Shown piece by piece: positions 362-13,091 of a stretch of DNA of 37,450 nt (within the stretch, counting starts at the first letter, position 1; every line of letters starts with the position of its first letter). The DNA lies in contig NZ_SCTW01000006.1 in assembly GCF_004322395.1 (NCBI RefSeq), positions 1 to 37,450 of the forward strand, in the 5' to 3' direction. The translations under genes and the position numbers were made by a program. The stretch is from Methylobacter sp. (GTDB taxonomy: Bacteria; Pseudomonadota; Gammaproteobacteria; Methylococcales; Methylomonadaceae). The notes below the pieces were generated by a model, which saw only the letters and a list, made by a program, of their open reading frames with translations, made no database searches and was not told the origin of the DNA.

Positions 362-437
362 CGACATTTTCGATAATAATGATTTAAACGATCAAAACGA
401 TAAAAACGATTGACTAAATCGATATAATCGCTACACT
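362..437 (+). promoter_or_regulatory. 9-bp phased CGAT operator array overlapping a putative promoter
   Basis: Tetramers occur exactly every 9 bp: CGAC at 362, CGAT at 371, TGAT at 380, and CGAT at 389, 398 and 407. The last unit runs into TTGACT (410-415), a good -35 element. TACACT at 432-437 sits 16 bp downstream as a possible -10, and a TATAAT at 423-428 is too close to pair with that -35. The same arrangement occurs at 9156-9190 before the BldC-like regulator gene. Inference: a cooperative binding site for a regulator that acts at the -35 of the chemotaxis operon. Confidence 0.6.
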
Positions 438-2766: not shown

Positions 2767-3315
2767 ATGAATGCAATCGCACAAACACTGCCGACTATGG
2801 CCGACAATCAGGAACTTGAGGAACAGCAGCAATACCTGACTTTCATGTTGATCGGCGAAACCTATGCCATCGGCATATTACGGATCAAGGAAATCATCCA
2901 ATACGGACAACTGACCGAAGTACCGCGGATGCCGGATTTCATCCGCGGCGTGATTAATCTACGCGGAGCCGTGGTGCCGGTCATCGACTTGAGCGCCCGC
3001 TTCGGCAAGCAGCCTACTGCGATCGGACGCCGCAACTGCATCATCATCATCGAAGTGACAATGGGCGACGAAACCCAGAATGTCGGGGTGATGGTCGATG
3101 CGGTGAATGCGGTGCTGGAGATTCCGGCTAGCGAGATCGAACCGGCGCCGACTTTCGGCACCAACATCCGCGCCGATTTTATTGCCGGCATGGGCAAAAT
3201 CAACGGCAAGTTTGTGATCATCCTGAACATTCAGCATGTGTTGTCGATGGATGACATGGCGTCGCTGGCCGGAGTAAGTTCCAGCCCGGTTGCCGAATTG
3301 GCGCAGACAGGATGA
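2767..3315 (+). CDS. cheW: Chemotaxis coupling protein CheW
   Basis: Cytoplasmic adaptor linking chemoreceptor tips to the CheA kinase. It has 182 residues and a single CheW domain at about residues 20-165, with the usual GETYAIGILRIKEII start, the GVINLRGAVVPVIDLSARFG core and a VDAVNAVLEI segment. The start at 2767 is preceded by AGGAGG (2756-2761), a near-perfect ribosome-binding site that overlaps the stop of the receptor gene. Tight spacing implies co-transcription with the receptor. The N-terminal 20 residues and the last 15 lie outside the domain and are variable in the family. No cheA lies in the window, so the partner kinase must be encoded elsewhere. Confidence 0.95.
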   Translation: MNAIAQTLPTMADNQELEEQQQYLTFMLIGETYAIGILRIKEIIQYGQLTEVPRMPDFIRGVINLRGAVVPVIDLSARFGKQPTAIGRRNCIIIIEVTMGDETQNVGVMVDAVNAVLEIPASEIEPAPTFGTNIRADFIAGMGKINGKFVIILNIQHVLSMDDMASLAGVSSSPVAELAQTG

Positions 3316-3708: not shown

Positions 3709-4293
3709 ATGAACGAATTAAAAACTATTGCAAAAATCAATGAGGAAATCAAAAGCATTGTTTACGCTGCGGAAAACATCAGCCTGACGGCAACCAATGC
3801 GATGCTGGTCGCCAGGCAAGCAGGCGTTAATGCCGTGGGATTCAACGTGGTTGCGCGTGAACTGCGGATGTTTAGCGAGACGATGGCCGCTGCGATGCAG
3901 GGATTATCCAGGCTGATTTACCGGCAAGTGATGGTCACAGCAACCAAGCGGCATCGGTTGCGCAATGTGGTTTTGCTCACCCAGACCGGAACTTACGGCA
4001 AGTTGGCAAAAACGCGGATCGGCCCCGCATGCGCGCGCAGCCAAGCCGACATACAGGAAATGGAGCGGCTTATTAGAGACCTGCTCCGAGAATTGCGGGT
4101 CACCATGAAACGGACTGCAAAACAATGCGCCACCGGCCTGGTCATTGCCCGTTCGGCCGGCATTGAGGCCGCTCACGGAGGCGCGATGACGCCGATATTG
4201 CGCCAGATTGCACAAGGTGTGGAAGAGGTTGTCGGCAATATCGCCGAGACCGTTAAAAAACTTGAAGCACGATTGACAGAGACAGGGTTATGA
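3709..4293 (+). CDS. Small cytoplasmic chemoreceptor-tip-like protein
   Basis: A 194-residue soluble protein with no transmembrane segment. Residues about 10-60 resemble the signalling tip of chemoreceptors: NAMLVARQAG, then GFNVVARELRMFSE, lines up with the usual [10 protein letters not shown], then [14 protein letters not shown]. Several tip residues differ. The glutamate after NAAI is Val and the following Arg position is Gln, positions that in classical receptors make trimer contacts. The rest is predicted helical with heptad-like leucines. Its stop overlaps the start of the next gene (ATGA), so it is translationally coupled to the ODP-like protein. Inference: a minimal receptor that receives a signal from that partner. 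It could instead be an adaptor or decoy for CheA/CheW arrays. The start at 3709 has no strong ribosome-binding site. Confidence 0.75.
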   Translation: MNELKTIAKINEEIKSIVYAAENISLTATNAMLVARQAGVNAVGFNVVARELRMFSETMAAAMQGLSRLIYRQVMVTATKRHRLRNVVLLTQTGTYGKLAKTRIGPACARSQADIQEMERLIRDLLRELRVTMKRTAKQCATGLVIARSAGIEAAHGGAMTPILRQIAQGVEEVVGNIAETVKKLEARLTETGL

Positions 4294-5030
4294 AAAAGGC
4301 GACAATTATTTATCAATCCGGACAACACCAATGGATTGCCATAGCCCGAGACCCGGAGCGGCCTAATTACCTGATCGATACCAACGAATACCTGATTACC
4401 GACGGCAGCACGGCACTGCTGACCGATCCCGGCGGTTCGGAAATCTTTGCGATGGTGTTCGCGGCGATCTGCGAAGCCTTCGACCCGGCGAATATAAGCG
4501 CGCTGTTCGCATCCCACCAGGACCCGGACATCATTTCGTCGCTGTCGTTGTGGCTGGATTTTAAACCGGAACTCAAATGCCACTTGAGCCGTTTATGGAC
4601 AACCTTTGTTCCGCATTTTGGCGGCTCCGACCAAACCCTGATCGGGATTCCCGACGAAGGTTCGGTAATTGCTGTCGGCAAGCTGAAACTGCAAGCCGTA
4701 CCGGCGCATTACCTGCATTCCTCCGGTAACTTCAATTTATACGACCCGGCGGCAAAACTGTTGTTCTCGGGCGATATCGGTTCGGCAATGCTGCCGGAAG
4801 AGTTGAACGCTTTATTCGTTAAAGATTTTGACCGGCATATTCACTATGCCGAAGGTTTCCACAAGCGCTGGATGGGATCGCCGGAAGCCAAGCGGCTGTG
4901 GTGCGAACGGGTAGCAGTTATGGATATCGACATGCTTTGCCCGCAACACGGCGCCATTTACCAGGGCGCAGACGTTGATCGCTTCATCAATTGGTTTTCG
5001 GAACTACAAGTGGGCTCCGGCTTGCTATGA
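4290..5030 (+). CDS. ODP-type diiron metallo-beta-lactamase-fold oxygen-sensor homologue
   Basis: 246 residues, consisting only of the flavodiiron-type metallo-beta-lactamase domain with no flavodoxin part. Candidate metal ligands are visible as H76-x-D78-x-D80 (in ASHQDPDI), H140, D162 (in LFSGDIGS) and H220 (in CPQHGAIYQG). In classical flavodiiron proteins the first motif is HxExDH; here Glu is Asp and the final His is Ile. Known from the family: Treponema denticola ODP is such a diiron protein acting as an oxygen sensor in chemotaxis next to a soluble receptor. Here the gene overlaps by 4 bases (ATGA) a small receptor-tip-like gene inside a chemotaxis cluster, which strongly supports the same role. 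A flavodiiron-like oxidase without its reductase domain is the alternative. Confidence 0.8.
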   Translation: MKKATIIYQSGQHQWIAIARDPERPNYLIDTNEYLITDGSTALLTDPGGSEIFAMVFAAICEAFDPANISALFASHQDPDIISSLSLWLDFKPELKCHLSRLWTTFVPHFGGSDQTLIGIPDEGSVIAVGKLKLQAVPAHYLHSSGNFNLYDPAAKLLFSGDIGSAMLPEELNALFVKDFDRHIHYAEGFHKRWMGSPEAKRLWCERVAVMDIDMLCPQHGAIYQGADVDRFINWFSELQVGSGLL

Positions 5031-5248: not shown

Positions 5249-6085
5249 ATGACAGCATACGCACTTACCAAACCTAATCTTGCTGCCGCAGTGTTGCAAG
5301 ACAAGGAATTCACACAATTTCGCGATTTGATCTACCGCATCGCGGGCATTAATATGTCGCCGGCCAAGAAGCCGCTGGTGACCAGCCGTCTGGCAAAACG
5401 GCTCAGGCACTACGGGCTTACGAGCTACGGCGACTATTTCAAAATGATTACCGCGGACAACAGCGCAGAGGAATTGCAAATAGCGGTGGATTTATTGACC
5501 ACCAACGAAACGCATTTCTTCCGCGAACCCAAGCATTTCGACTTTCTACGCCAACGCATTTTGCCGGAACGCAAACCCGGCACGCCTTTTCGCATCTGGA
5601 GCGCCGCTTGTTCGAGCGGCGAGGAGCCATATAGCATTGCGATGCTGCTGGATGACGCATTGGCTAATGCGCCGTGGGAAATCGTCGCTTCCGACCTGAG
5701 TACGCGGATGTTGGAAAAGGCGCGCACCGGGCTTTATCCGCTGGAGCGCATGCTTGAAATTCCCAAGCCTTATTTGTCGAACTACTGCCTTAAAGGCACC
5801 GGCACTCAGGAAGGAACGTTACTGATCGAGCGCAAACTGCGCGAACGCGTGCGGTTCATACACTATAACCTGACTGAAGCCCCGCCTAAACTGGGCGGAT
5901 TCGACGTGGTATTCCTGCGCAACGTGATGATCTATTTCGACCAGAACACCAAGCGTCAGGTTGTATCGAGCCTGCTGTCGCTGTTGCGTCCCGGCGGCTA
6001 TATCCTGATCGGCCATTCCGAAACGCTGAACGGCATAAGCGACGACGTACGCCTGGTACAGCCGGCGGTTTACCGGAAGCTCTGA
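5249..6085 (+). CDS. cheR: Chemotaxis protein methyltransferase CheR
   Basis: Methylates glutamates of chemoreceptors with S-adenosylmethionine during adaptation. It has 278 residues, normal for the family. The N-terminal helical domain (about 20-90) carries FRDLIYRIAGI and the DLLTTNETHFFRE linker. The Rossmann methyltransferase domain follows, with the SAM-binding IWSAACSSGEEPYSIAM motif, the acidic ASDLS strand and VVFLRNVMIYFD. ATG at 5249 follows GGGGAT. cheD begins two bases after the stop, and cheB overlaps cheD, so the three adaptation enzymes form one transcript unit. The EFVRF tail of the receptor at 823-2757 may be its docking site. Confidence 0.96.
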   Translation: MTAYALTKPNLAAAVLQDKEFTQFRDLIYRIAGINMSPAKKPLVTSRLAKRLRHYGLTSYGDYFKMITADNSAEELQIAVDLLTTNETHFFREPKHFDFLRQRILPERKPGTPFRIWSAACSSGEEPYSIAMLLDDALANAPWEIVASDLSTRMLEKARTGLYPLERMLEIPKPYLSNYCLKGTGTQEGTLLIERKLRERVRFIHYNLTEAPPKLGGFDVVFLRNVMIYFDQNTKRQVVSSLLSLLRPGGYILIGHSETLNGISDDVRLVQPAVYRKL

Positions 6086-6086
6086 A

Positions 6087-6617
6087 ATGGTAAAGCCGGC
6101 GAATCCTTTGGATATATTTCTTCATCCCGGCGACTATTACTTCGCCGATCGGGATACCCGCATCCGCACGATACTGGGTTCATGCGTCGCGATGACTTTT
6201 TGGCATCCGCAGTTGTTGGTCGGCGGCATGTGCCATTACATGCTGCCGGAACGCGGCAGCGAGCATAAATCGGGCAATCGACCTGCTCCGGACGGGCGCT
6301 TTGCCGATGCGGCAATTGCCCTGCTGCTGGCGGAAATCGATACCGTCGGCGCGCCCTATCGGGAGTACCAGATCAAGTTGTTTGGCGGCGGCAATATGTT
6401 TCCTAAAAACGGCAACACGACCCAGCTCGGCATGCAAAATATCGGAGCCGCGAGGCGGCTGGCCAAACATTATGGCTTTACCTGTGTAGCCGAGTACCTG
6501 GGCGATTTCGGCCACCGCAATATAATTTTTGAAGTCTGGAGCGGCGAAGTATGGGTCCGGCATAGTCAGATATTACCGTTAACCGAATATGAATCGATAG
6601 ACAGGAGCTTAGGATGA
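6087..6617 (+). CDS. cheD: Chemoreceptor glutamine deamidase CheD
   Basis: Deamidates glutamine side chains of chemoreceptors, creating the glutamates that CheR methylates and CheB demethylates. 176 residues. The catalytic cysteine lies in the [11 protein letters not shown] segment near residue 33, preceded by the conserved Thr of RTILGSC; the catalytic His is in [10 protein letters not shown]. The later FGGGNMF and [13 protein letters not shown] segments are also typical of CheD. The gene starts one base after the cheR stop region and its TGA overlaps the ATG of cheB. In many bacteria CheD also interacts with CheC phosphatase, but no cheC is visible here. Confidence 0.95.
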
Positions 6618-7684
6618 CGCAGATTAAGGTATTGATCGTCGACGATTCCGCAGTGGTGCGGCAGGTATTGACAGCAAATTTGTCTCAGGATCCGGGCATT
6701 AGCGTGATCGGCGCCGCTTCCGACCCGGTATTCGCAATGGCGCGCATGCAAAGCCAATGGCCCGACGTGATCGTGCTGGATGTCGAAATGCCGCGCATGG
6801 ACGGCATCACCTTTTTGAAAAAACTGATGGCTGAGCGGCCGACGCCGGTAGTGATTTGCTCGACACTGACCGAAAAAGGCGCGGAAACGACGATGCAGGC
6901 GCTGGCGGCCGGAGCGGTCAGCATCGTCACCAAACCCAAAGCAGGGCTCAAGCAATTTTTACAGGATGATTCGGAAGGCTTGATCAGCGCAGTCAAAGCC
7001 GCCGCCCGCGCCAACCTGCGCCGGCTGGGCACAGCGAACGCGGTATCGGTGCAGGGCAAATTAACGGCCGATGCGATCCTTCCGGCCGGTGCGCATGCCA
7101 TGGCGGAAACCACCGACCGGGTGGTCGCAATAGGCACCTCGACCGGCGGCACGCAAGCTCTGGAAGTGGTACTGACCGCGCTGCCGCGGGTCTGTCCCGG
7201 CATTGTAATCGTGCAGCACATGCCGGAAAAATTTACCGGCGCGTTCGCCGACCGCTTGAACACTTTGTGCCGGATTGAAGTGCGCGAAGCCGCCAACGGC
7301 GACCGCGTGCTGCCGGGACACGCGCTGATCGCGCCCGGCGGGCGGCACATGCTGCTAAAGCGCAGTGGGGCGCAATACCATGTCGAGATCGTTGATGGGC
7401 CGCCGGTCACCCGCCACCGCCCTTCCGTCGATGTGTTGTTCCGCTCGGTCGCCAAATGCGCCGGTAAGAACGCGCTGGGCATCATCATGACCGGCATGGG
7501 CGATGACGGCGCCAAAGGCCTGAAGGAAATGCACGACATGGGCGCGCGTACCGTGGGACAAGACGAAGACAGTTGCGTGGTCTACGGCATGCCGAAAGAA
7601 GCGGCCAAACTGGGCGCTGTGCACAAGGAGCTACCGCTGGGCCGGATTGCTTATGAGATCGCGGCATACGGCAGCGGCCGATGA
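6614..7684 (+). CDS. cheB: Protein-glutamate methylesterase/response regulator CheB
   Basis: Removes methyl groups from chemoreceptors when phosphorylated by CheA. 356 residues. The receiver domain (about 1-125) has D10/D11, phosphoacceptor D56 in [12 protein letters not shown], and K108 in the VTKPK segment. The linker is followed by the methylesterase domain (about 165-350), whose triad is visible as S176 in GTSTGGT, H202 in [15 protein letters not shown] and D298 in [11 protein letters not shown]. It overlaps cheD by four bases (ATGA). Complete and apparently functional. Because no CheA or CheY lies in the window, phosphate input must come from a kinase encoded elsewhere. Confidence 0.97.
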
Positions 7685-7746: not shown

Positions 7747-9096
7747 ATGAAAATCTTTAGTCATAAAACAATGATTGCGGCAGCAAGCAGTCTTTTATCG
7801 ATCAGCGTTAGCGGAACTCATGTTTATGCAGATTCAGGCATGGTCGAATCGCTTACGGAATTTGCCATTAACGAAACCGATTTGTTGAAAGATAACGGCG
7901 TAGTGGTCGGCGGCTGGGCCAATGCCGGTATCACCTATAACGCGGCAAACCCGGCCAACAACTTCAACGGCCCCGTTACGTTCGGCGACCGTTCCGGCGA
8001 ATTCCAGTTGAATCAATTAAACTTGTTCGTACAACGCGCCGTAGCGACAGAAGGCGACGCATGGGATTTCGGCGGACGTGTCGACGCCATGTTCGGCACT
8101 GATGCGATTTTCACCCAGGCTTACGGCGTTCCTGCGTTTGATGCGAATACCGGATTGCCGTTGAACCGAAGCCATTGGGACTTGAATCTGCTCGGCGCTA
8201 ACGACAATCGTTTTTACGATATAGCCCTGCCCCAAGCGTACGTCAAAATTTATGCGCCAGCCGGCAATGGCTTAAATATCAAGGCCGGTCATTTCTATAC
8301 ACCGATCGGCTACGAAACAGTTCCCGCTCCCGACAACTTTTTCTATAGCCATGCCTACACCATGCAATATGGCGAACCGTTCACCCATACCGGTGTGATG
8401 GGCAACTATACGGTCGATAAAAACTGGTCCGTTATGGGCGGCGCTGTAACCGGTAGTGCAACCGGGGGTTGGGACGGCGGCTGGGATAAACAGTTGGGTA
8501 ATTGGGGCGGCTTGGCAGGCGTTATCTGGACCAGCGACGATAAAGTGAGTAGCGCTAATATCAGCGGTACTTATGGCGGTACTTCAGAGCAAAGCAGCCA
8601 ATCCTGGGGCTTATACAGTATCGTGTTGAAGCACAACATTAGCGCTAAAACGCACCTGGTTTTGCAACATGATCATGGCTATGCCAATGGCGTATTGCTG
8701 GGCGGTATACCTACAGATACTGAATGGTACGGCGTCAACACGCATTTGACCTACGACATTAAGGATAACTTGGCTGCGGGGATCCGCGCCGAATGGTTCC
8801 GCGATCAAAACGGATTCAGGGTCTGCTCTCCTGCGCGCGTGGCGGCCGCTACCAATAGCGCCGGAACCAGTTATGCGATCGGCGGCCAAGTTAACAACAG
8901 CACTTGCAATGCCGCCAGCTATTACGCGATCACGGCCGGGTTAAACTGGAAACCGGTCAAATGGCTGAATATCCGCCCGAACGTTCGTTATGACTGGGTC
9001 GATGGCAATATTTCGGCAGGAGGGCGCTACCGGCCTTTCGGCAACGGCAAGCAGGATCAATTTTTGTTTTCGACCGATTTTTCGATCAGTTTCTAA
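7747..9096 (+). CDS. Outer-membrane beta-barrel porin, BBP2 (OmpL-like) family
   Basis: 449 residues. A Sec signal peptide is clear, with a charged start, a hydrophobic core and likely cleavage after VYA (residue 28). The mature part is rich in alternating aromatic/polar beta-strands (for example GWANAGITYN, ANISGTYGG, IRPNVRYDWVDGN) and ends with FSTDFSISF, whose terminal Phe is typical of outer-membrane proteins. The segment around AGHFYTPIGYETVPAPDNFFYSHAY matches the putative beta-barrel porin-2 family. Two cysteines (VCSP and STCN, about residues 358 and 381) may pair in an extracellular loop. AAGGGAG before the ATG is a good ribosome-binding site. The substrate is unknown. It follows cheB by 62 bases and could be read through from the che operon. 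Confidence 0.85.
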   Translation: MKIFSHKTMIAAASSLLSISVSGTHVYADSGMVESLTEFAINETDLLKDNGVVVGGWANAGITYNAANPANNFNGPVTFGDRSGEFQLNQLNLFVQRAVATEGDAWDFGGRVDAMFGTDAIFTQAYGVPAFDANTGLPLNRSHWDLNLLGANDNRFYDIALPQAYVKIYAPAGNGLNIKAGHFYTPIGYETVPAPDNFFYSHAYTMQYGEPFTHTGVMGNYTVDKNWSVMGGAVTGSATGGWDGGWDKQLGNWGGLAGVIWTSDDKVSSANISGTYGGTSEQSSQSWGLYSIVLKHNISAKTHLVLQHDHGYANGVLLGGIPTDTEWYGVNTHLTYDIKDNLAAGIRAEWFRDQNGFRVCSPARVAAATNSAGTSYAIGGQVNNSTCNAASYYAITAGLNWKPVKWLNIRPNVRYDWVDGNISAGGRYRPFGNGKQDQFLFSTDFSISF

Positions 9097-9155: not shown

Positions 9156-9216
9156 AGATTTAAACGATATATTCGATAAAATCGATTGACCAGTTAAACT
9201 TTATGTATTATATAAT
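9156..9216 (+). promoter_or_regulatory. Second 9-bp phased CGAT operator array with promoter
   Basis: AGAT at 9156 and CGAT at 9165, 9174 and 9183 are spaced exactly 9 bp apart. The last unit forms CGATTGAC, so TTGACC (9186-9191) is a likely -35, and TATAAT (9211-9216) is a likely -10 with a long 19-bp spacer. Over the 34 bases 9157-9190, about 29 match 381-414 before the chemotaxis operon, including an identical GATTTAAACGAT. The array lies 160 bases before the HTH-receiver gene. Inference: autoregulation by that protein. Confidence 0.62.
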
Positions 9217-9350: not shown

Positions 9351-9917
9351 ATGGCAAGTAATGACAATAAGTCTTATCTAACACCCAGCGAGGCCGCCAA
9401 GCTATTGATGGTGTCGCCGATTACTGTGCGTGCGTGGGCTCAAAAAGGTTTGTTACCTTCCGAGACAACGCCTGGCGGGCACCGCCGTTTTCTGCGCGAA
9501 AGTGTAGAGCTGTTTGCCAAGCAGTGTAAAACAGCGCCAAAACGTAACGATTTGCGGATACTGATCGTAGACGACGACAAACAAGTCGCCGGATTCCTCG
9601 TCGAATGGCTGACCGGCTTGGATGAGCCGTTTATAGTCAGTTCCGCAGTCGATGGATTCGAGGTTGGCAGCAAAGTGCATACTTTCGAGCCGGACATCAT
9701 TCTGTTGGACTTGATGATGCCTGGGCTGGATGGATTCGCAGTCTGCCGGCAGATCAAAGCCGACCCGGATACCAGCGATATTCGCGTGATTGCGATGACC
9801 GGCCATCCGAGCCCGGAAAACCAGCAGCGTATCCTTGAAGCGGGCGCGGAAATCTGTATTGCCAAACCGCTGGACACCAAATTTCTGCTTGGGTTACTGA
9901 AAGCCGACTTGTCGTAA
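9351..9917 (+). CDS. BldC/MerR-like HTH plus receiver domain regulator
   Basis: 188 residues in an unusual order: DNA-binding domain first, receiver second. Residues 8-55 form a MerR/excisionase-type winged helix (LTPSEAAKLLMVSPITVRAW, then GLLPSETTPGGHRRF) very like Streptomyces BldC. Residues 68-186 form a receiver with acidic D74-D76, phosphoacceptor D120 (ILLDLMMPGLDG), T150 and K172 (AKP). Most response regulators have the receiver at the N-terminus. The next gene is a hybrid histidine kinase 48 bases downstream, the likely phosphodonor. A CGAT array upstream of this gene, repeated before the chemotaxis operon, is its likely target. ATG at 9351 gives the best HTH start. Confidence 0.88.
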   Translation: MASNDNKSYLTPSEAAKLLMVSPITVRAWAQKGLLPSETTPGGHRRFLRESVELFAKQCKTAPKRNDLRILIVDDDKQVAGFLVEWLTGLDEPFIVSSAVDGFEVGSKVHTFEPDIILLDLMMPGLDGFAVCRQIKADPDTSDIRVIAMTGHPSPENQQRILEAGAEICIAKPLDTKFLLGLLKADLS

Positions 9918-9965
9918 CATTTCGGCTACACCCCCTTATCTTCCAACAGCTTGAAAAGGTGGCTC

Positions 9966-12900
9966 ATGGATAAGCGCATTACCCTCTTCGTATCGGGCAT
10001 GTTGGCGGATATGAATCGTTACTGGATGTTGCTGGCATTGTTGGCTGCTGTGGCGATTGCGTTTTTTTTGACGCCCGGCACTTATTTCGAGATGGCACAG
10101 CGCGACTTCCTGCCTTTGCATACCTTGCTGGAATTTTCCTCGGTTCTGGTCGCATTGATGGTATTTGGCGTGACTTGGCACAGTTTGTCGCCAACCCGTT
10201 CCGCCAACATAACGTTGCTGGGTTGCGCGATGCTGGCCTCCGGCTTGCTGGATTTTGGCCATACGCTGTCTTACAAAGGGATGCCTGATTTTGTTACGCC
10301 ATCCTCTCCCGAAAAGGGTATCGCTTTCTGGCTGGCGGCCAGGTTGACTGTTGCGACTGCACTCTGTATCGCCTCTTTCATGTCTACAGACCCGCTACGC
10401 AAACCGCAAATCCGCTATGTACAGTTGTTGGTCTATTGCCTGTATACGCTGCTAATCTACTGGGTAGTGCTATTTCATGAATCGGTTCTGCCGCGCACCT
10501 TTATCGAAGGCCAAGGCTTAACGCATTTTAAGGTGGCTTGTGAGTGGGGCGTTATCGGCCTGCTTGCTATTGCTGCAAGCCGTTTTTGGCGGCGTACTTG
10601 CGATGCTGCGGATATCCACAACCTGAAAACTTATTTTTTTGCCGCCGCTGTGGTCTTTATCATGAGCGAGGTGTTTTTTACTCAATACAAAACCACGAGC
10701 GACGCTTTTAATGTATTGGGCCATCTTTATAAAATAATTGGTTATTTTCTGCTGTACCAGGCCGTATTTGTGACTACTATTCAGGCCCCTTACCATGAAG
10801 TCGAGCACCAGCAAACGCGGTACCGGCAATTGTTCGAGAATATGACCTCCTGCGGCGTGGTTTACCAGTCGGTTGATAACGGCAGCGATTTTATTTTTCT
10901 GGAAGTCAATCACGCAGCCGAACGCACTGAAAAAATGGCCCGGGAAGAATTTATAGGCAGACGGCTGGCTGAGCTTTTTCCCGGCGCAGCTAATTCCGGC
11001 TTGCTCGATGTGTTGCGCCGGGTCTGGCGTACAGGCCAGACTGAACATTTTCCTGTTAAGTACTATAAGGATGGGCGCATTGCCGGCTGGCGGGAAAACT
11101 ACCTCTATCGTTTGGCCGATGACAATGTTGTTTCCATCTACGATGACATCACCGAGCGCAAATTGGCGGAACAGGCGTTACAGGAGAGCGAGAAAAATTT
11201 TCGGGCGATTTTTGAAACGGCCGCCATCGGTATGTCGGAAGCCGACCCAGTGACCGGTAAGTTCTTGCGCGTCAATTTGAAATTCTGCCAAATGACCGGC
11301 TATTGCGCAAAAGAACTTCTCTCCAAGACCATTGAAACGATCACTCATCCCGATGACCGGGAAAAGAACATGGAAGACTGGGGACGCATGGCGCGCGGAG
11401 AGGTGCCTGAATACACGGCTGAAAAGCGCTATATTCACAAGGACGGCCATGAAGTTTGGGCGCATTTGAACGTAGTCGCCCTTCGCGATGAAAACGGAGT
11501 GATAGTTCGCACTCTGGGGGCTATTGCCGACATTACCGCACGCAAACAGGCTGAAGCCGACCGCCTCCGCCATGACCGTGAGTTAAAATCCATTTTCGAC
11601 GCTTTACCCGATTTCTACTTCCATCTAGGCTCGGATGGAACCATCCTCAGCTATCACGCCAATCCAACAGCCATGGGTGAACTGCACGTGCCTCCGGAAC
11701 AATTTCTTGGCCGGCGCGTAATTGATATTTTGCCGCCTGCGCAGGCGGAGCTGTTTGCTGTTAAGCTCGGAGAGCAACGAAGTAGCGGCAAGATAATTAC
11801 TTTTGAATATCAGCTTACGGTATCCGGTGCGGAGCGTTATTACGAAGCGCGTCTAACCAATCTTGCCGATAGTGACGACATTATCGTGCTGGTACGGGAT
11901 ATCGTCGAGCGCAAGCTATTAGAGCAACAATTGCAGCAAGCGCAGAAAATGGAAGCATTAGGGCAATTGACCGGCGGAATCGCCCACGACTTCAACAATA
12001 TTCTGGCTGCCATTCTCGGTTACTCCAACCTTGCTATGGAGCGGTGCGTATCCGACCCCTCGGATAAACTGGCCCGTTATCTGGGCGAAGTCATTTCCGC
12101 CAGCGAACGGGCTCGCGACCTGATTGCCAAGATGCTTGCTTACAGCCGGACTTCTTCGGCCGTGGCAAGCGTTCCCCTGGACATGGTTCCGGAGGTGGAA
12201 AAAGCCGTTGCCATGTTGTCCGTTGCCATTCCGGCAGGCATTGAAGTTGCTACTCACATCGAACCCTACGTTCCTTCAGTACGGATTGATCCGATTGAAG
12301 TACAACAGGTGTTAATTAATCTCTCCGTTAATTCCCGCGACGCCATTGGCGAACAGGGCCGTATCGACATTACGCTTGAGCGCGCCAAAGTTAAACACAG
12401 AGCCTGCGCGATTTGCCACAATATCATCGAAGGAGATTATGTAGCCCTGGAAGTGAAAGATAGCGGTAACGGTATTCCAGCCAATATACAGCAGCGTATT
12501 TTCGATCCCTTTTTTACGACCAAAGACATTGGCAAGGGCTCGGGGCTCGGTTTAAGTATGGTGCAAGGGGTCGTCATAAAAAACAATGCGCATTTACTGA
12601 TAGAAACCGGCCCTGGTCAAGGCACTTCATTCAGACTGTTGTTTCCCTTTACGGAAGCAGAGGCGGTCAGTTCAGCAGCCCCACTTTCCATGCCGAGCGC
12701 GCGTATAACAGAGAGCTGGCGCATTTGGGTGGTAGAAGACCAAGAGTCTTTGGCTAGCTATTACCTGGAACTGCTGCAGGAACAAGGCTATCTGGTTACC
12801 GTTTTTACCGATCCTTCCGAGGCATTACGCGCTTTTCGGCTTGATTCGGACAATGTGGACCTGATTCTTACCGACCAGACCATGCCGCATTTGAGCGGCG

Positions 12901-13091
12901 CTGAATTGGCCGGTGCCGTGCTTGCCATAAGGCCGGAACTGCCGATTATTCTGGTCACCGGTTATAGCGAGACAATTAATGAAGAAGAAGCGAAACGCCT
13001 GGGTATTCGATGCTATTTGAGTAAACCTGTGGACGGAAACAAATTGTTGGACATATTGGCAGCAGAACTCCGCAGAAACGGCTATGCCTAA
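9966..13091 (+). CDS. MASE3-PAS hybrid histidine kinase with C-terminal receiver
   Basis: Membrane-bound hybrid sensor kinase of 1041 residues from ATG 9966, chosen over TTG 9951 because AAGG lies at a good distance before it. The N-terminal multi-helix region (about 10-270) has the MASE3 signature around LEFSSVLVALMVFGVTWHS and LDFGHTLSYKGMPDF. Three PAS domains follow (about 285-400, 410-530, 535-650). The HisKA domain has phosphoacceptor H674 (GGIAHDFNNILA). The ATPase domain has NLSVNSRDAI, VKDSGNGIP and GKGSGLGLSMVQG. The C-terminal receiver (about 905-1035) has D970 in LTDQTMPH. There is no Hpt domain, so phosphotransfer to the adjacent HTH-receiver protein would need H674 directly or a separate Hpt protein. 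The ligand is unknown. Confidence 0.93.
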   Translation: MDKRITLFVSGMLADMNRYWMLLALLAAVAIAFFLTPGTYFEMAQRDFLPLHTLLEFSSVLVALMVFGVTWHSLSPTRSANITLLGCAMLASGLLDFGHTLSYKGMPDFVTPSSPEKGIAFWLAARLTVATALCIASFMSTDPLRKPQIRYVQLLVYCLYTLLIYWVVLFHESVLPRTFIEGQGLTHFKVACEWGVIGLLAIAASRFWRRTCDAADIHNLKTYFFAAAVVFIMSEVFFTQYKTTSDAFNVLGHLYKIIGYFLLYQAVFVTTIQAPYHEVEHQQTRYRQLFENMTSCGVVYQSVDNGSDFIFLEVNHAAERTEKMAREEFIGRRLAELFPGAANSGLLDVLRRVWRTGQTEHFPVKYYKDGRIAGWRENYLYRLADDNVVSIYDDITERKLAEQALQESEKNFRAIFETAAIGMSEADPVTGKFLRVNLKFCQMTGYCAKELLSKTIETITHPDDREKNMEDWGRMARGEVPEYTAEKRYIHKDGHEVWAHLNVVALRDENGVIVRTLGAIADITARKQAEADRLRHDRELKSIFDALPDFYFHLGSDGTILSYHANPTAMGELHVPPEQFLGRRVIDILPPAQAELFAVKLGEQRSSGKIITFEYQLTVSGAERYYEARLTNLADSDDIIVLVRDIVERKLLEQQLQQAQKMEALGQLTGGIAHDFNNILAAILGYSNLAMERCVSDPSDKLARYLGEVISASERARDLIAKMLAYSRTSSAVASVPLDMVPEVEKAVAMLSVAIPAGIEVATHIEPYVPSVRIDPIEVQQVLINLSVNSRDAIGEQGRIDITLERAKVKHRACAICHNIIEGDYVALEVKDSGNGIPANIQQRIFDPFFTTKDIGKGSGLGLSMVQGVVIKNNAHLLIETGPGQGTSFRLLFPFTEAEAVSSAAPLSMPSARITESWRIWVVEDQESLASYYLELLQEQGYLVTVFTDPSEALRAFRLDSDNVDLILTDQTMPHLSGAELAGAVLAIRPELPIILVTGYSETINEEEAKRLGIRCYLSKPVDGNKLLDILAAELRRNGYA

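Follow-up and report, generated by a model that had tools for sequence, protein, structure and literature searches.

Phased 9-bp arrays at Methylobacter chemotaxis promoters as predicted operators of a BldC-like HTH–receiver response regulator

A BldC-type HTH–receiver regulator encoded in a Methylobacter sp. genome very likely assembles on phased operators, through which it would control chemotaxis promoters and, in five of nine genomes of the genus, its own gene. From sequence comparison we infer its binding, its assembly, the direction of control, the pairing with a kinase and any oxygen-related signal. The window, by which we mean the whole stretch of 37,450 nucleotides analysed, contains two of these operators, one preceding a chemotaxis operon and one preceding the regulator gene. 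The features involved are:

362 to 415, + strand: array 1, six 9-bp units, the last one forming CGATTGACT; TTGACT at 410-415 is the −35
432 to 437, + strand: predicted −10 (TACACT) of the chemotaxis operon, after a 16-base spacer from the −35 of array 1
823 to 2757, + strand: MCP1 chemoreceptor (4HB_MCP/TarH, HAMP, MCPsignal)
2767 to 3315, + strand: CheW, by domain match
3709 to 4293, + strand: short MCP-like protein, with an MCPsignal match under the curated cut-off
4290 to 5030, + strand: ODP-family protein with a metallo-beta-lactamase fold
5249 to 7684, + strand: CheR (5249-6085), CheD (6087-6617) and CheB (6614-7684), by domain matches
7747 to 9096, + strand: BBP2/OmpL-like porin, lying after the chemotaxis genes and ahead of array 2
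9156 to 9191, + strand: array 2, four 9-bp units, ending in TTGACC at 9186-9191
9211 to 9216, + strand: predicted −10 (TATAAT) of the regulator gene, after a 19-base spacer from TTGACC
9351 to 9917, + strand: regulator, with an N-terminal BldC/MerR-type winged helix-turn-helix (wHTH; residues ~9-59) and a C-terminal receiver (~70-180)
9966 to 13091, + strand: hybrid histidine kinase MASE3-PAS-HisKA-HATPase-REC, by domain matches; start at 9951 in the ORF list

According to the original prediction, the arrays have six units (362-407) and four units (9156-9183) at an exact period of 9 bp, share about 29 positions of their 34-base cores and end on a promoter −35. These positions are confirmed, 29 of the 34 core positions are equal, and the last unit of each array runs into a −35 with a −10 behind it (TTGACT, 16 bases and TACACT for array 1; TTGACC, 19 bases and TATAAT for array 2). 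Single-base deviations from CGAT occur in two of the six units of array 1 (CGAC at 362 and TGAT at 380, with CGAT at 371, 389, 398 and 407) and in one of the four units of array 2 (AGAT at 9156, with CGAT at 9165, 9174 and 9183). The pattern CGATN5CGATN5CGATTGA, with up to one mismatch, is found at two places in the window, namely the two arrays, and has no match in 100 dinucleotide shuffles of the window. When each gap was varied from 2 to 9 bases (64 spacing pairs) over 23 genomes of the genus, 13 of 43 matches fell on the 5/5 gaps that make a 9-bp repeat, while the other 30 were spread over 15 pairs; the runners-up, 8/7 (n=7) and 5/9 (n=5), look like repeated conserved segments. Together with a word-by-period scan of distant homologues (see below), the shuffles and the spacing scan rule out a chance or low-complexity repeat.

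For the regulator gene, an overlapping TATATA at a 17-base spacer could also serve as the −10; the promoter of array 2 is missing from a simple promoter scan, which was limited to spacers of 16-18. The spacer of the array 1 promoter contains a further CGAT at 420, out of register. Transcription from this promoter would give a leader of ~380 nt ahead of MCP1 (438-822). A leader RNA family before MCP1 was ruled out, as no Rfam family scores above its gathering score there. One weak terminator-like hairpin lies within the leader at 539-553.

Neither CheA nor CheY is found among the ten window proteins profiled, including those of the array 1 operon. A third array in the same genome (G000:C40), with eight positions in register of which one is fully degenerate, lies upstream of MCP2, a CheY-like receiver, a STAS protein, CheA and a PAS-MCP, and the MCP2 operon thus supplies the kinase and the CheY not found in the window operon. 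Because CheA and CheY are not found in the one and are present behind the third array, the two operons can be read as a single chemotaxis system over two loci, joined by a common operator. The ODP family has an oxygen-sensor role; in the window the short MCP-like gene overlaps the ODP-family gene (3709-5030), and the pair is perhaps a two-part oxygen receptor unit. The MASE3-PAS hybrid kinase is the presumed partner of the regulator, given that the genes are adjacent here and also in Rhodoferax (L104). An oxygen theme running through the ODP protein, a hemerythrin, the MASE3-PAS kinase and the PAS-MCPs is suggestive only.

To describe the operator, we collected 18 arrays by hand in the nine regulator-positive genomes of the genus; 13 fit the strict pattern, 5 narrowly miss it, and nine one-mismatch places in the same genomes were left out of the set. 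The arrays span 3-8 positions with 3-7 recognisable units. The 88 recognisable units read C G A T (T/A) (A/T/G) A A (T/A), summarized as the consensus CGATTAAAW, with C in 76, G in 83, A in 85 and T in 87 of them at the first four places. One register is common to all 18 arrays, each of which ends in CGATTGA. In all 18, a −10-like hexamer lies 16-19 bases downstream of TTGAC/T; it has 4-6 of 6 letters as the best of spacers 15-19, taken without a shuffle control. The in-register units stop at the −35 in every array. An extra, out-of-register CGAT(A), 12-14 bases past the last unit, lies in the promoter spacer of six arrays (window 420, G000:C40, L242, L071, L051 and L253) and does not fit the simple register; no CGAT is present in the spacers of the remaining 12.

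The genes behind the arrays are mostly chemotaxis or regulator genes. MCP2 operons follow arrays in six genomes of the genus; other targets are the window operon and, in two genomes, PAS-MCP or MCP genes. In two genomes, an array precedes a small protein without a Pfam match, followed in one of them (L090) by a hemerythrin gene; these small proteins (L090:1235-1534 and L060:122-442; ~100 aa), directly behind their arrays, are alike by eye. One further genome has an array before a protein without a Pfam match that precedes a PAS-MCP, and another before an HD-domain gene. The HD-domain target and one of the targets without a Pfam match are not chemotactic. Control of chemotaxis genes, as originally proposed, is thus supported at the sequence level, for a predicted regulon wider than first thought. 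The proposed autoregulation holds up in part: an array stands at the regulator's own gene in five of the nine genomes, and four are without one. As a separate observation, proteins with a HEAGH metalloprotease-like motif are encoded near an array or chemotaxis cluster at L084:1909-2655 and L089:11960-12706, the former with no Pfam match.

Arrays and regulator co-occur within the genus. Calling the regulator present at E values up to 1e-30, under which weaker homologues may still exist in the negatives, places it in 9 of 23 genomes of the Methylobacter-like genus. A cultured laboratory strain, Ca. Methylobacter oryzae KRF1 (L097), carries the regulator. Exact −35-joined arrays occur 13 times, in nine of nine regulator-positive genomes and in none of the 14 regulator-negative ones, six of which have one-mismatch matches only. 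Such a split has a chance of 1 in 817,190 if the genomes were independent, and they are related; an rpoB tree covering 21 of the 23 requires 5 changes of the regulator label, at least three of which are forced by supported branches. A search of the genome and its relatives, which had been proposed as a check, accordingly finds −35-joined arrays co-occurring with the regulator and not scattered. That they occur with the regulator alone holds for exact arrays in the genus and less strictly beyond these: a regulator-negative draft that is 80% complete (G013) has a degraded, 14-of-16 array at its MCP2 gene, so either the regulator is encoded in the part not assembled or the array is a remnant, and of the 214 genomes from other genera among the 237 of the wider family, 7 carry one strict match each with no regulator found. 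None of the five family genomes with 48-52% identical homologues has a strict −35-joined array.

MCP2 itself is present in 8 of 9 regulator-positive and 3 of 14 regulator-negative genomes of the genus. In the complete, regulator-negative genome G019, its orthologue is 76% identical, with a similar −10 and leader and no array. MCP2-type genes were found at 17 places, of which 14 were examined and 3 partial ones left aside; seven of the 14 score only 10-11 of 16, six of these in regulator-positive genomes. The G019 gene is therefore weak evidence on its own, because 6 of the 12 MCP2-type genes examined in regulator-positive genomes are also without an array.

Among the patterns tried, only the −35-joined form cleanly separates regulator-positive from regulator-negative genomes. 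No separation was obtained with a loose CGATN5CGATN5CGAT allowing 1 mismatch (137 places in the own genome against 21 for a reversed control), with a loose 4-unit pattern (37 of 46 distant genomes match, mostly at places that are GC-rich by eye), or with a W-rich 3-unit pattern (28 of 237 family genomes, including 7 of 9 regulator-positive and 3 of 14 regulator-negative genomes of the genus), the last of which also matches 13 of the 46 distant genomes. Two places in the own genome were set aside: a 9-bp CGAT run at G000:C135:7363, whose copies in G006 and the regulator-negative G011 lie inside 353-357-codon frames, was taken as a coding coincidence, and a third exact match (L003, G000:C151), with no visible promoter layout and beside a ParA-like gene, was taken as chance. 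A different repeated motif, starting GATGACGC and often ending GATTTAC, was seen at 17 of 46 listed places in the own genome (e.g. G000:C46:38011-38196, C109:45426 and C117:1238-1304), in two cases forming an inverted pair (separated by ~160 and ~40 bases); it is perhaps a MITE- or REP-like element.

Beyond the genus, a scan of named genomes returned 61 loci with relatives of the regulator, of which eight belong to the genus and seven (L151-L157) are partial or weak, leaving 46. We scanned the 300 bases upstream of these 46 genes with 168 four-letter words at nine periods (1,512 combinations). CGAT at 9 bp ranks first, at 9 of the 46 loci (47-58% identical proteins), and the next six combinations all have period 9 and mostly overlap CGAT; 200 mononucleotide shuffles averaged 0.015 and never exceeded 1. 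The nine loci include near-copies (L135/L145; L118/L122/L123), and 37 of the 46 upstream regions fall under the array threshold. When ten periods were compared irrespective of word, period 9 came out strongest at 13 of the 36 loci that lack a CGAT array and, as it must by construction, at 10 of 10 loci that have one. At eight of the nine distant CGAT loci the array begins 69-109 bases before the start of the homologue.

Arrays with a 9-bp period but another word (CGCA, CAAC) accompany some homologues whose recognition helices differ: several Colwellia homologues have CGCA-type units, for example CGCAAAAAA repeats, and a beta-proteobacterium has CAACAAAAA / CATTAAAAA. Motility and chemotaxis genes also stand behind arrays outside the genus. 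In Rhodoferax (L104), a four-unit array separates the genes for the regulator and a MASE3 kinase from flhD and flhC, while two Undibacterium species have three units upstream of cheW. Unlike in the genus arrays, TTGAC lies in the second unit in Rhodoferax and Undibacterium, and in-register units extend past the −35 into the spacer. Two further loci, L188 (G265:C18) and L195 (G278:C424), have an AT-rich CGAT array upstream of a gene, at a distance of 302 and 145 bases respectively; the two encoded proteins start alike (...YVFGVPGGAIEPLYNALAR...), the gene looks like one for a thiamine-pyrophosphate enzyme, and it is a possible further target of the regulator family. L199 (G268:C114:3981-4011) marks a second, diverged HTH–receiver-like gene, in which GGHRRF has become AGQYRF; four CGAT units lie ~120 bases upstream of it, and the genome has a normal copy as well.

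The regulator has 188 residues, including a receiver domain (Response_reg, 81.9 bits) that makes it a two-component response regulator by domain. The acidic pair, phospho-acceptor Asp and Lys are present (D74, D75, D120 and K172, at 90% or more in 47 aligned proteins comprising 38 of the 46 distant loci, 8 genus loci and the window regulator). The N-terminus had been predicted to fold like BldC, and BldC (6ama_A) is indeed the best PDB sequence match of the HTH (phmmer E 1.3e-7, residues 5-53); the same region matches Pfam MerR and MerR_1 and scores 51 bits against NCBIfam HTH_BldC (NF033787), below its cut-off of 77. In a predicted model (mean pLDDT 86), helices and wing lie two residues earlier than in BldC, and the best fold match of the whole model is 3cnb, the receiver of a Colwellia psychrerythraea 'merR' response regulator, with 42% identity over the receiver. 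The counterparts of BldC E16, V23, W31, T42 and G44 (interface) and H46, R47 and R48 (wing) do not vary among the 47 aligned proteins. Five of the ten BldC interface residues are thus kept (E14, V21, W29, T40 and G42 here) and five are changed (F21 to L19, R22 to M20, I40 to E38, L43 to P41 and L11 to Y9). The base readers of BldC, Arg30 and Lys26, are not conserved, being Ala28 and Ile24 here; the position of Arg30 is often Gln, Ser or Leu in homologues, and an invariant Arg27 lies one residue earlier.

The array word is associated with this recognition helix at the sequence level. At loci with strong 9-bp periodicity (z of at least 3), CGAT arrays accompany 9 of 10 Thr25 proteins versus none of four with Ala25 or Ser25 (Fisher p 0.005), and at z of at least 2.2 they accompany 9 of 14 versus none of seven non-Thr25 proteins (p 0.007), in a comparison where residue 25 was chosen after looking, kinship is ignored and the L149 sequence is unreadable. 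The claim that the array is the target of the 9351-9917 protein therefore gains support from this association, the co-occurrence, the distant arrays and the 9-bp unit of BldC.

In the mechanism that we propose, one wHTH would occupy each 9-bp unit (CGATTAAAW), and neighbouring protomers would touch head to tail, lining up in one direction. At its end the row would meet RNA polymerase, on the −35 that belongs to the last unit, where the last protomer could touch sigma. Phosphorylation of the receiver, most likely by the adjacent MASE3-PAS hybrid kinase, would tune the assembly. The promoters under this control, mostly those of chemotaxis genes (the window operon, the MCP2-CheY-STAS-CheA operon, PAS-MCP genes and, in relatives, a hemerythrin-linked gene), would more likely be activated than repressed.

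Two other accounts concern what the arrays are and what binds them. Simple AT-rich tandem or mobile repeats with no regulatory role could explain why some arrays contain identical spacers (at G000:C40, CGATAAAAA three times running, as from slippage) and would fit the 9-bp CGAT runs inside a long open frame in G006 and G011, also at G000:C135:7363. However, one word and one register are found at promoters that are not related to each other and whose spacers differ, and the −35 is in each case the last unit; none of the 14 sister genomes lacking the regulator has an exact −35-joined array; and the pattern recurs upstream of homologous regulators beyond the genus, which together make this account extremely improbable. 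We also give little credence to an unlinked protein that binds the arrays and co-occurs with the regulator, the latter being merely one target. In favour of such a protein, a co-inherited target would show the same co-occurrence as a binder, four of nine regulators in the genus have no array at their own gene, and MCP2 too largely co-occurs with the regulator (8/9 versus 3/14). Such a binder would nevertheless leave unexplained why nine homologues outside the genus (47-58% identity) have 9-bp arrays directly upstream of the regulator gene, why the array word is associated with the regulator's own recognition helix, and why the unit is the 9 bp that a BldC-type HTH reads.

The direction of control is a separate question, in which the regulator binds but may mainly repress, a filament at the −35 blocking RNA polymerase until phosphorylation releases it. 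Overlap of the last unit with the −35 would suit such a block, as would the footprint of BldC at smeA-sffA, which covers ~−60 to −10 (PMC5859096). Repression retains some probability because of the further CGAT in six of the 18 spacers, the layout in the Betaproteobacteria Rhodoferax and Undibacterium, with in-register units beyond the −35, and the closeness to the gene start of the distant arrays (8 of 9 within the 69-109 bases given above). Nevertheless, activation appears more likely because none of the 18 genus arrays has in-register units beyond the −35; the absence of CGAT from 12 of 18 spacers and the many imperfect −10 hexamers (TACACT, TAGACT), as expected of activated promoters, also speak for it, and we regard a mainly repressive role as rather unlikely.

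The closest known systems are BldC, the Colwellia protein of 3cnb, OmpR/PhoB-type response regulators and classical MerR activators. In Streptomyces, each BldC protomer binds 9 bp, head to tail, on CAATTCGGA repeats with the consensus AATTNNNN(C), through interface residues E16, R22, F21, V23, W31, L11, I40, T42, L43 and G44; Arg30 and Lys26 read bases, with Arg30 contacting a C-G pair, and the 2018 authors state that this binding mode is known from no other MerR-like regulator (PMC5859096). BldC (6ama, 6amk) and the regulator share the wHTH type and 9-bp direct-repeat operators of varying number in one direction, with the unit CAATTNNNN in the former and CGATTAAAW in the latter. Whereas BldC, as described in that source, is a free-standing 68-residue protein that reads the word AATT and targets developmental genes, here the HTH is fused to a receiver with a kinase gene adjacent, the word is CGAT in more regular repeats, and the predicted targets are mostly chemotaxis genes. 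The regulator is BldC-like and not a member of the BldC family, a name we chose because it has 188 residues with a receiver domain and is no small stand-alone protein.

The Colwellia protein of 3cnb is the best fold match, and Colwellia loci are among the homologues found, but the entry holds the receiver domain alone and the upstream repeats there are CGCA-type, not CGAT. PhoP and PmrA are response regulators of the OmpR/PhoB type that bind direct repeats (PMC5859096), as predicted here. The domain order is reversed in comparison (HTH first here), the HTH family is another one, and the arrays here reach eight positions at 9 bp. PhoB-type repeats have a longer spacing than 9 bp. Classical MerR regulators have a related wHTH and an operator that is a palindrome in a 19-20 bp promoter spacer (PMC5859096). 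Here, the coiled coil is replaced by a receiver, and direct repeats lie upstream, with the last unit being the −35 and no palindrome in the spacer. Only the array 2 promoter has a 19-bp spacer as in MerR promoters; spacers of 16-18 bp in the other 17 of 18 rule out a classical long-spacer MerR promoter. The oligomeric winged-helix protein RdfS, the subject of a 2025 paper, may be a further relative of the BldC mode. Among the matches listed in the open-access literature, there is no functional study of the HTH–receiver family, and one solved receiver domain, 3cnb. The binding mode is already known from BldC; no paper among those matches describes its fusion to a receiver, promoter arrays of this regularity, targets in chemotaxis and motility, or a link between array word and recognition helix.

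More broadly, and as a tentative proposal with slightly less than even odds, the HTH–receiver proteins of Beta- and Gammaproteobacteria could be phosphorylation-controlled versions of BldC that form directional filaments on 3-8 positions of 9 bp at the −35, where the number of units would set how each chemotaxis, flagellar or oxygen-sensing promoter responds, and a short code in the recognition helix, around residues 23-28, would set the word. If true, operator word and HTH–receiver protein could be matched from sequence alone. With the predicted operator, a response-regulator family gains a predicted regulon and mechanism, and the BldC binding mode would extend to two-component proteins. Through the variable unit number and the word-helix association, questions about filament-forming regulators would become testable with synthetic promoters. 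For aerobic methanotrophs, the arrays suggest joint control of a two-locus chemotaxis system that includes oxygen-binding-type proteins.
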